Shown: piece after piece, positions 16,079-26,144 of the stretch
Layout of the letters: each line of letters opens with the position of its first letter
Position numbering within the stretch: position 1 is the first letter of the stretch
Assembly (NCBI GenBank): GCA_029251525.1
Contig: JAQXDE010000035.1
Location: forward strand, 124,001-188,000
Length of the DNA stretch: 64,000 nt
Direction of reading: 5' to 3'
DNA from: Saprospiraceae bacterium
GTDB taxonomy: Bacteria; Bacteroidota; Bacteroidia; Chitinophagales; Saprospiraceae
Made by a program: the position numbers and the translations under genes
Notes under the pieces: generated by a model
Database searches by the model: none
The model's input: the letters and a program-made list of their open reading frames with translations, nothing else
What the model was told of the DNA's origin: nothing

Positions 16079-16793
16079 TTATTTAATTAAACTTGGTTGC
16101 CTAAATGGATTTCCGTTTGAATTAATAGCGGCTTGGATACTTTCTCGAAAATTATAGTAAGTTTGGTCTGTGTGGAATAAGGTAGATATCACGGTATCTC
16201 CTTTAATGAAATCAAATCCAATTGCATAAACTATTTCATTGTCAGTCGTTGCTAAATAATCAGTTATAGTAAAATTTTGCTTATCATTTCTTTTTCCTTG
16301 AGGATTTTGAAACTAAAGCCTAAGCCTTGTAAGGACTGTCTGGCGTCAAAACTGTTTCTAGTGTATCTATCAATATAGGTTTTAGAATTTGTGTTGTAGC
16401 AGATGCAATCCATCCATTCTCATCTCTAACTAGGATTGAGAAATCTTCCTCATAACTCTCAGAACAAATGAAAGAAGTTCCAATGTTATAAACTTTTGTA
16501 TTAGTTGGATCGCTGTAAATCCCCTCACTTAAAGTATAAACTTCTCCTTGATGAGTGATTTTCATTGAGGCTCCATCAATAATTGGTAATCCTTGTTCAG
16601 CAAACAAATCTACACTCTTATATATAATTGCTAAAAATGGCTGTCCTACTTATAAGTAACATTCGATAGCTAATTGTTTCTCATAATTTGGCAACGCTAA
16701 ATCCAGTTCTTTTTCCAGATCACAATTTGAAAAAATTGTCATAAGGGAAATTGATATTAAAAAATTCGAAAGATTATTTTTGAGTGATATCAT
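16079..16793 (-). pseudogene. Decayed DUF4249 lipoprotein gene
   Basis: Three pieces of one gene are visible. From an ATG at 16793 comes a lipoprotein signal (lipobox FSNC) and the DUF4249 N-terminal pattern (EKELDLALPNYEKQLAIECYL), stopped by TAA at 16650-16652. The same frame continues (VGQPFLAIIYKS..., then 16607-16320) through a beta-rich stretch ending at TAG. A third piece in another frame, 16079 to about 16316, encodes DYLATTDNEIVYAIGFDF and ends near GNPFRQPSLIK, resembling the DUF4249 C-terminus but shortened. One stop, one frameshift and lost middle sequence mark it as a pseudogene. DUF4249 proteins usually accompany TonB receptors; none is adjacent here. Confidence 0.75.
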
Positions 16794-16912
16794 AGTTGAT
16801 CTTAACTTACATTCCAAATTTAAGGAGTTATTTGACAACTCAGTTTTTTCGAATTTTTGTTTTTCAATTATTAAAATCTGTACCAGATTATTATTAGAAA
16901 TTGAGTAATTAA

Positions 16913-17003: not shown

Positions 17004-17175
17004 AATTTTTTTCAATTTGATAACAAAGAAAATAGTTCACATCTCCAATATTAAAAATTAATTATTATTCACTTTTTTTACTGTTTTTTATTAGTAAATT
17101 GTTGATTGTCAGTTAATTAAGTGTGCATATTTATTTTTTGTTTAAAAAAATAGTTCACAAAAGATGTATTTTGTC

Positions 17176-17207
17176 TTTGTCTAGAGCCATTCTCGAGTAT
17201 ATATTTG
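17176..17207 (+). promoter_or_regulatory. Strong Bacteroidota promoter before ncRNA array
   Basis: TTTG (17176-17179), a 20-base spacer and TATATTTG (17200-17207) match the major sigma-factor consensus of this phylum exactly. No coding frame follows; instead the first core-plus-terminator unit does, implying an RNA starting near 17214. Confidence 0.75.
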
Positions 17208-17213
17208 TAATGT

Positions 17214-17355
17214 AATTAGTGATAAGGTATTTAAGAGATGCCAAAGGCTTAAAAGTAACGCCAAAAAAGATTACAAATAAGGATATGTTCATGGGATTAT
17301 AATTTGTTGTAGTTAGTCAGAGTCCTATTAATTAGGATTCTGACCTACTTCTTTT
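17214..17355 (+). ncRNA. Putative small RNA, about 140 nt
   Basis: The interval runs from the expected start of a consensus promoter to a terminator hairpin (17316-17344) and contains no plausible ORF. It holds the conserved core ATATGTTCATGGGATTATAA at 17283-17302. A 9-base inverted pair (ATTTGTAAT at 17203-17211 and ATTACAAAT at 17270-17278) brackets the first part, but its left arm overlaps the -7 box, so it may not be in the RNA. The same core plus terminator recurs twice downstream. The family is not recognised; candidates to exclude are 6S RNA and the Rfam Flavo-1 motif. The core also reads as ATG-TTC-ATG-GGA-TTA-TAA, a five-codon frame, perhaps by chance. Confidence 0.55.
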
Positions 17356-17372
17356 CTCATGGTAAAAAATAT
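17275..17372 (+). repeat. Core-terminator repeat unit 1
   Basis: This ~97-base unit contains the core at 17283, the extension GTTGTAGTTAGTC, the hairpin and a TACTTCTTTTCTCATGG tail. It is about 90 percent identical by eye to the unit at 17437-17533, with most changes in the loop-proximal stem and tail. The changed stem base (G versus A) keeps pairing. Confidence 0.85.
17316..17354 (+). terminator. Terminator of repeat unit 1
   Basis: GTCAGAGTCCTA and TAGGATTCTGAC pair over 12 bp (one G-T) around TTAAT and are followed by the pyrimidine-rich CTACTTCTTTTC. Confidence 0.65.
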
Positions 17373-17436
17373 AGGAGAGGAATTGAAATAGAGGGAATTG
17401 CAAAATGATGCAATCAAAGCTGAAGGTTCAGCACTT

Positions 17437-17533
17437 AAATAAGAATATGTTCATGGGATTATAATTTGTTGTAGTTAGTCAAAGTCCTATTAATTAGGAT
17501 TCTGACTTACTTCTTTTTCATGATAAAAATATA
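17437..17533 (+). repeat. Core-terminator repeat unit 2
   Basis: A second copy of the core (17445-17467) and hairpin, 162 bases after the first. It is preceded by a different small hairpin (GCTGAA-GG-TTCAGC, 17420-17433) where unit 1 has a GCC-rich stretch. No clear TAnnTTTG box was found directly upstream, so it may depend on read-through or a weaker promoter. Confidence 0.85.
17478..17517 (+). terminator. Terminator of repeat unit 2
   Basis: GTCAAAGTCCTA and TAGGATTCTGAC pair with the same TTAAT loop as unit 1; the tail is TTACTTCTTTTTC. Confidence 0.65.
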
Positions 17534-17558
17534 AAAATGAGCAGAGGTTACTAAAAAA

Positions 17559-17594
17559 GAAAGTCATAAGACCCTGAAGGCATTATGACTTTTC
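17559..17594 (+). terminator. Hairpin between units 2 and 3
   Basis: AAGTCATAA and TTATGACTT form a 9-bp stem around a 13-base loop and end in TTTT. A diverged core-like string (GTTTATGGGGATATAATCT) follows at about 17604-17622. Confidence 0.5.
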
Positions 17595-17721
17595 TAGAAT
17601 TTTTGTTTATGGGGATATAATCTATTAGAATACAAATCTAATAAATTTATTCATATTAAAGTATAATTATTTGTGTTTTTACACAATAAAAATATTTACT
17701 AAATAAGTTTTAGTCAAAGAG

Positions 17722-17744
17722 ATATGTTCATGGGATTATAATTT
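17722..17744 (+). repeat. Core repeat, third copy
   Basis: The core ATATGTTCATGGGATTATAA plus TTT is identical to copies 1 and 2, but the flanking sequence is different. It is followed, after an AATTGAAC spacer, by an unrelated, stronger terminator. Conservation of the core while flanks and stems differ argues that the core itself is functional. Confidence 0.8.
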
Positions 17745-17752
17745 AATTGAAC

Positions 17753-17790
17753 AAGTCGCATTTTCAACTGAAAATGCGACTTGTTTTTTT
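17753..17790 (+). terminator. Strong terminator of repeat unit 3
   Basis: AAGTCGCATTTTC and GAAAATGCGACTT make a perfect 13-bp stem with an AACT loop followed by G and seven T. It isolates the array from pyrC, whose ATG is 139 bases further on. Confidence 0.88.
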
Positions 17791-25943: not shown

Positions 25944-26035
25944 GGAGGAGTGGGAGAGTGGCTGAATCCACCGGTTTGCTAAATCGACGTACTTGGAAAC
26001 AGGTACCGCGGGTTCGAATCCCGCCTCCTCCGCCA
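25944..26035 (+). tRNA. tRNA-Ser (GCT)
   Basis: The 92-base gene has a 7-bp acceptor stem (GGAGGAG with CTCCTCC), discriminator G and an encoded CCA. It has the D-arm of serine tRNAs, anticodon GCT at 25978-25980 in the loop TTGCTAA, the long variable arm expected of a class II tRNA, and a T-arm with GGTTCGAATCC. The first pair of the anticodon stem looks mismatched. It reads AGC/AGU codons. Confidence 0.95.
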
Positions 26036-26069
26036 GTTTTATAATAAAACCATTCTTTATAGAATGTAT

Positions 26070-26144
26070 CGGGGCATGGCGCAGTCCGGTTAGCGCACCT
26101 GCTTTGGGAGCAGGGGGCCCCAGGTTCGAATCCTGGTGCCCCGA
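26070..26144 (+). tRNA. tRNA-Pro (TGG)
   Basis: The 75-base gene has acceptor stem CGGGGCA/TGCCCCG, anticodon stem CCTGC/GCAGG with loop TTTGGGA and anticodon TGG at 26105-26107, and T-arm GGTTCGAATCC. Unlike the serine tRNA 34 bases upstream, CCA is not encoded (A then CAAT), so it must be added by tRNA nucleotidyltransferase. Its 3' end borders the eroded island. Confidence 0.95.

Follow-up and report, generated by a model that had tools for sequence, protein, structure and literature searches.

Among described bacterial RNAs, the FopS/GibS small RNAs (sRNAs) of Bacteroides thetaiotaomicron provide the closest point of reference for the locus analyzed here; they combine a conserved seed with a terminator, and the seed of FopS binds near the start codon of its target (PMC11697453). 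The same report names LhrC1-7 of Listeria monocytogenes (PMC11697453). LhrC1-5 of this bacterium are tandem, near-identical sRNAs with repeated seeds and terminators, each transcribed from a promoter of its own. The protein sponges CsrB, CsrC and RsmY-Z repeat GGA-containing motifs within one RNA. Finally, sRNAs can be targeted by RNA sponges or anti-sRNAs, of which a Caulobacter RNA sponge is an example (PMC12559287). Post-transcriptional regulation in Bacteroidota outside of Bacteroides has been little studied, and in the full-text literature that we searched neither an sRNA of the Saprospiraceae nor the core sequence reported below has been described.

The locus reported here is an array of a 20-base core in the 5.2-Mb genome of a member of the Saprospiraceae (Bacteroidota). 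Like FopS/GibS, it points to multicopy, paralogous sRNAs in Bacteroidota with a Bacteroidota-type promoter and a similar layout. Unlike FopS/GibS, however, its core is preceded by roughly 50-100 nt of leader instead of occupying the 5' end, several tandem cores stand behind one promoter, the core is found in the Saprospiraceae only, and a separate complementary sRNA family exists. Since no Rfam family of any kind was matched, we do not file the core RNA as a member of FopS/GibS. With LhrC1-5 the array shares tandem near-identical copies with repeated seeds and terminators, but it belongs to a different phylum, has a different seed, and its later copies are mostly devoid of a promoter. With CsrB, CsrC and RsmY-Z it shares the repetition of a GGA-containing motif in one RNA; in contrast to these, CsrA is absent, the core is 15-20 nt long and invariant, and complementary RNAs exist. 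In the manner of sRNA sponges, the complementary family, which we term B, and other anti-core RNAs would sponge the core sRNA, yet here both partners are multicopy, and the core partner occurs in tandem and has been retained throughout an entire bacterial family.

Results

The window, by which we mean the entire stretch of 64 kb of DNA that was analyzed, carries on its plus strand three exact copies of the 20-base core (17283-17302, 17445-17464 and 17722-17741). By chance, 0.02 exact copies are expected in it, and none of 100 shuffles yielded three. All three are intergenic, and no open reading frame of at least 60 aa lies within 17176-17790. A diverged copy, TTTTGTTTATGGGGATATAA, was read from the sequence at about 17602-17621 (+). 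A covariance model built from 32 core units (R1) recovers the three exact copies as 17254-17352 (77.7 bits), 17416-17514 (77.4 bits) and 17693-17788 (71.5 bits), all on the plus strand; it has no other strong match in the window and gives none at the diverged copy. Copies 1 and 2 are spaced by 162 nt and lie in a common 81-nt repeat with 96% identity.

Each exact copy is followed by a hairpin on the same strand. Hairpin 1 with its U-rich tail is terminator-like (17309-17355; stem 17316-17344 with 12 pairs and a GTAG/CTAC extension), and hairpin 2 with its U-rich tail occupies 17471-17518. Copy 3 is followed by a strong intrinsic terminator that ends the array (17749-17790; 17-pair stem 17749-17786 plus a T tract). 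An extra hairpin, AAGTCATAA / TTATGACTT with a TTTTCT tail, was read from the sequence at 17562-17595 (+), 5' of the diverged copy. A terminator scan returned three sites, one of them on the other strand, against 0.1 expected; the hairpins after copies 1 and 3 passed it, while that after copy 2 failed despite its near-identity with hairpin 1.

Ahead of the first core lies a promoter (17169-17207, +) composed of TTTTGTCTTTGT (TTTG at 17176-17179), 20 nt and TATATTTG (17200-17207). An upstream element, TTCACAAA (consensus TTCACAAT; 17154-17161, +), is located about 45 nt 5' of the TAnnTTTG box. From the position of the promoter, we deduce a 5' leader with an inferred start (17213-17282, +), which folds into a small hairpin near 17246-17262 (+); as judged by eye, a leader hairpin with an A-rich loop also recurs among relatives. 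The gene 3' of the array, encoding an amidohydrolase resembling dihydroorotase, is on the same strand and lies 188 nt past the last core. At 16320-16840 of the window, on the minus strand, two adjacent short frames give the impression of being fragments of one broken lipoprotein-type gene.

Most of these features had been claimed by an initial annotation made from the sequence alone. Its three exact copies, its diverged copy (given as near 17604), its gene-free stretch, its promoter of the form TTTG-N20-TATATTTG before the first copy, and its different, stronger hairpin at copy 3 (17 pairs versus 12) all held. The 97-base unit with a common hairpin that it assigned to copies 1 and 2 held roughly, the measured repeat being shorter. 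Its observation is thereby confirmed; of the hairpins that it took for terminators, the one at copy 2 does not pass the scan.

A further array, also with three exact cores, is present on a different contig of the source genome, between convergent genes (L011 2701-3100; G000:C25:380201-380600). Of 41 genomes found by searching relatives, 22 contained the core, mostly with at least two copies, and these 22 belong to a single family. In an even sample of the Saprospiraceae, 127 of 150 genomes, representing 98 of 112 genera, contained a match with no more than one mismatch to a 17-mer, often in tandem; some of these matches are anti-core elements. Core-bearing named records of a public collection likewise belong mostly to the Saprospiraceae, and elsewhere in the class the only matches were isolated ones with one mismatch, a single match in each of 12 genomes. 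The R1 model matched 33 of 37 Saprospiraceae genomes and none of 162 genomes from other families of the order (sister families). The core is thus near-universal among the Saprospiraceae, and the covariance model finds it in none of the sister families that were sampled. In most arrays, cores are spaced by 92 to about 300 nt.

Conservation of the core is pronounced. Across 298 instances gathered at no more than one mismatch, identity at its 13 central positions is 99-100%, and the flanking GGATA (5') and TTTGTT (3') are more weakly conserved. The hairpin after the core varies, whereas the letters of the core scarcely change. A U-tract follows all 84 last cores of multi-core arrays and 72 of the 108 earlier ones. 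The stem of the hairpin is 90% paired, compared with 22-44% when slid, and every one of its pairs has changes on both sides; double-change cells number 79 against 24.6 after shuffling, and the covariation score is 0.679 versus 0.231. The hairpin thus changes by compensatory substitution, and a terminator hairpin with a U tract is conserved by covariation. Folding of single units left the core about 46% unpaired and no more open than the upstream flank, so that a single-stranded core is not demonstrated by folding. The core can also be drawn as a small hairpin. A core variant, TTCATGAGATTATAA, accompanied by a terminator, forms a subfamily beside the main core (L354, L362, L365, L367, L368 and L370); it occurs as a tandem set of three in L354 and also in core-plus-terminator units.

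The promoter is equally a property of the arrays as a group. A block consisting of TTCACAAT ... TTTTGTCTTTGT-N19-ATATTTGTATCGTGA is located 5' of first cores. In 58 of 84 multi-core arrays, the first core is preceded by its strict anchor, TTTTGTCTTTGT-N19-ATATTTGTATCGTGA, which was found in only 6 of 108 later intercore regions and at 5 of 536 background places; the window array's own promoter is a variant of this anchor. As the block precedes first cores and rarely later ones, we infer that an array is normally one transcription unit. The TTCACAAT element appears at a constant offset in the logo of the 58 anchored arrays and could possibly be an activator site. In many arrays, TTCACAAT (17154-17161 of the window) and an ATTGTGA near the transcription start (17205-17215) are inverted copies about 60 nt apart; whether this pair serves as the operator pair of a regulator is no more than a possibility.

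Searches against Rfam 15 at gathering threshold yielded nothing in the window except two tRNA genes (25944-26144). Within the array region, with E values up to 10 admitted, the best score was 25.1 bits against a threshold of 50. No match above threshold was obtained for the second array or for the A and anti-core loci, and the Rfam model of FopS/GibS matched neither the region nor the other array.

Among the core-like matches that did not fit the array pattern were reverse complements of the core, situated just 5' of a terminator on the other strand. One such anti-core site led to the discovery of a second RNA family, B (for instance, L219:1480-1645, L217 and L294-L353), whose members share an invariant motif, TTTTGGTATGTAGATAGCCTCTCAAAGCTCTTTT, with a terminator behind it. 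The 22-nt center of this motif is present in exact form in 29 of the 150 Saprospiraceae genomes, a patchier distribution than that of the core, and all 29 also give a core match; the motif itself is not known to have a partner. B RNAs contain between one and three anti-cores, elements whose sequence is complementary to that of the core. An anti-core that pairs strongly with the core lies upstream of the motif in 29 of 37 B copies (shuffled cores: mean 0.8, maximum 8), mostly at -48 to -54 and -69 to -76 from the motif, and at least two are found in 14 of the 37. The mean best pair score of B with the core is 11.5 against 4.9, and the mean duplex energy is -20.4 kcal/mol versus -11.7 kcal/mol for shuffled leaders. 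One form found in B, TTATAATCTCATGAA, is exactly complementary to the core variant TTCATGAGATTATAA. The existence and the fixed placement of anti-cores in B are therefore established. That B and the core RNA actually pair with each other is in our view likely, but this is inferred without an experiment, and a bias of anti-core substitutions toward keeping wobble pairs was not significant (p = 0.13; sites chosen without a wobble bonus).

Other RNAs contain anti-cores as well. About six such elements are packed into 260 nt and followed by a hairpin at L216:1370-1660 (+; genome G075), 5' of a gene for a DUF4382 protein; several shortened elements occur in L363, and two in L378. A search with TTCAYGAGATTATAA gave 49 exact matches and none for the reversed control, and many of the 49 lie beside a terminator, either as core variants or, with the terminator on the opposite strand, as anti-cores. 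The genome of the window yielded no B motif, no clear anti-core RNA and no excess over control when searched with the anti-core 15-mer; in most core-positive genomes, too, our searches revealed no B partner. As only 29 of 150 genomes have B and the window's genome has none that we could find, B cannot be the universal partner of the core.

Anti-core sequences also overlap start codons of open frames, namely in L233 (TTTTTAATCCC ATG AAC) and in L376/L377 (TTATAATCTC ATG AAA), which represent two species of one genus. Of 319 start regions sampled from the window's genome, 7 pair with the core at ≤-15 kcal/mol versus 2.7 ± 2.2 in controls that retain TTCATG, and 3 of 40 controls equal this number. 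A core-negative genome displayed no excess, and a second core-positive genome a weak one. These data are merely suggestive; mRNA start sites (UUAUAAUCYC-AUG-AA) can be entertained as further core targets by inference only.

Discussion

We regard the array as most likely the gene of a trans-acting, base-pairing sRNA with the core as its seed, for which B and similar RNAs would be antisense partners or sponges; transcription, pairing in the cell and the direction of regulation are inferred. Several hallmarks of a trans-acting sRNA gene are seen in the sequence, namely its own promoter block, the lack of an open reading frame, a non-coding character and a terminator hairpin with a U tract. In the model that we propose, the single promoter (about 17169-17207) would give rise to an RNA with several cores and a hairpin after each. 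Leaky internal terminators and a strong final one would yield transcripts of about 143, 306 and 578 nt; tandem copies would increase the number of seeds per transcript. The seed, UUCAUGGGAUUAUAA, would sit between the leader hairpin and the terminator hairpin and pair with the anti-core UUAUAAUCYCAUGAA in B sRNAs and in several other terminator-adjacent RNAs. A core-binding protein may participate as well; in 23 genomes CsrA is ruled out for this role, whereas RRM proteins are not.

Most probably, the core defines a new, tandemly arranged RNA family that is matched by a second, complementary one, while the kind of regulator is already known; expression and pairing are inferred here, too. Core and B constitute two new RNA families for annotation, and a near-universal, near-invariant sRNA core together with a complementary sRNA family offers a directly testable RNA-RNA circuit. 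A bolder reading, which we would not favor at present without quite dismissing it, sees the core as the hub of an RNA-RNA network spanning the Saprospiraceae. Tandem seeds on one transcript, their number set by leaky terminators, would be counteracted by anti-core RNAs of several classes that arose separately (B and multi-anti-core RNAs as in L216 and L363), and both sides would be kept by mutual pairing.

The proposal of the initial annotation that a family of tandem small RNAs keeps its core while the hairpins change is supported by the comparative data (distribution, promoter, covariation and lack of an Rfam match). It knew of no described RNA with such a layout, which holds for Rfam, and it named a strong Rfam match, or lack of conservation in relatives along with the absence of a transcript starting near 17214, as outcomes that would refute it. 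The covariance and Rfam searches that it called for revealed conservation in relatives and no strong Rfam match; hence, as far as computation can decide, neither outcome applies. It missed the complementary partners, and it is these that give the best hint at what the core does.

Several points count against a pairing seed. Besides the wobble result, the restricted occurrence of B, the merely suggestive start-site signal and the folding of the core, invariance over 15-20 nt exceeds the need of most sRNA seeds and would be compatible with a site bound by protein as well. The best-surviving alternative is that the core is recognized by an RNA-binding protein, such as an RRM-1 protein resembling RbpB, and that the array is a protein sponge read by protein and not by pairing. 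In its favor, the core is near-invariant across tandem copies, and RRM_1 proteins are encoded by 22 of the 23 genomes examined. However, RRM_1 proteins are present with or without the core and are therefore not specific, and the fixed positions of reverse-complement elements in B would be left unexplained. None of the 23 Saprospiraceae genomes has CsrA, with which sponges carrying GGA repeats classically pair up, and a CsrB-type sponge is thereby rejected. We consider a protein sponge unlikely as the sole explanation, although protein binding and pairing may coexist, as with RbpB and FopS (PMC11697453).

With still less support, the core could be a DNA element (a regulator, recombination or transposition site) that lies by chance beside terminators in either orientation. 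Core-like elements do occur on both strands relative to adjoining terminators. Yet in the A arrays the core sits 3' of a conserved promoter block and 5' of a covarying hairpin, orientation is constant within arrays, the element is fixed in place within another transcript-like unit in B, and no mobility gene is prominent among the recurring neighbors examined. This reading is very improbable.

A cis-acting leader, in which tandem core-terminator units attenuate the downstream gene and the core acts as an antitermination site, can be virtually ruled out. It corresponds to the riboregulatory core linked to termination that the initial annotation had offered as its second option, and the same-strand amidohydrolase gene of the window would accommodate it. 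By contrast, 50 of 82 arrays are followed by a gene on the opposite strand, and a leader is consequently not supported. Moreover, the second array of this genome precedes an opposite-strand gene, and downstream genes mostly differ between arrays. A repeated, translated MFMGL peptide is just as firmly dismissed, since the frame ATG TTC ATG GGA TTA TAA, correctly noted in every core by the initial annotation, is without coding selection: its third positions show the same invariance as the rest, single substitutions comprise 2 synonymous cases versus 28 that are not, and only 10 of 63 changes of the TAA codon retain a stop.

The trans-acting sRNA thus remains our preferred reading. Upstream neighbors of the arrays recur without a common theme; a protein resembling cytochrome c peroxidase is found in 19 arrays (names from reading sequences).
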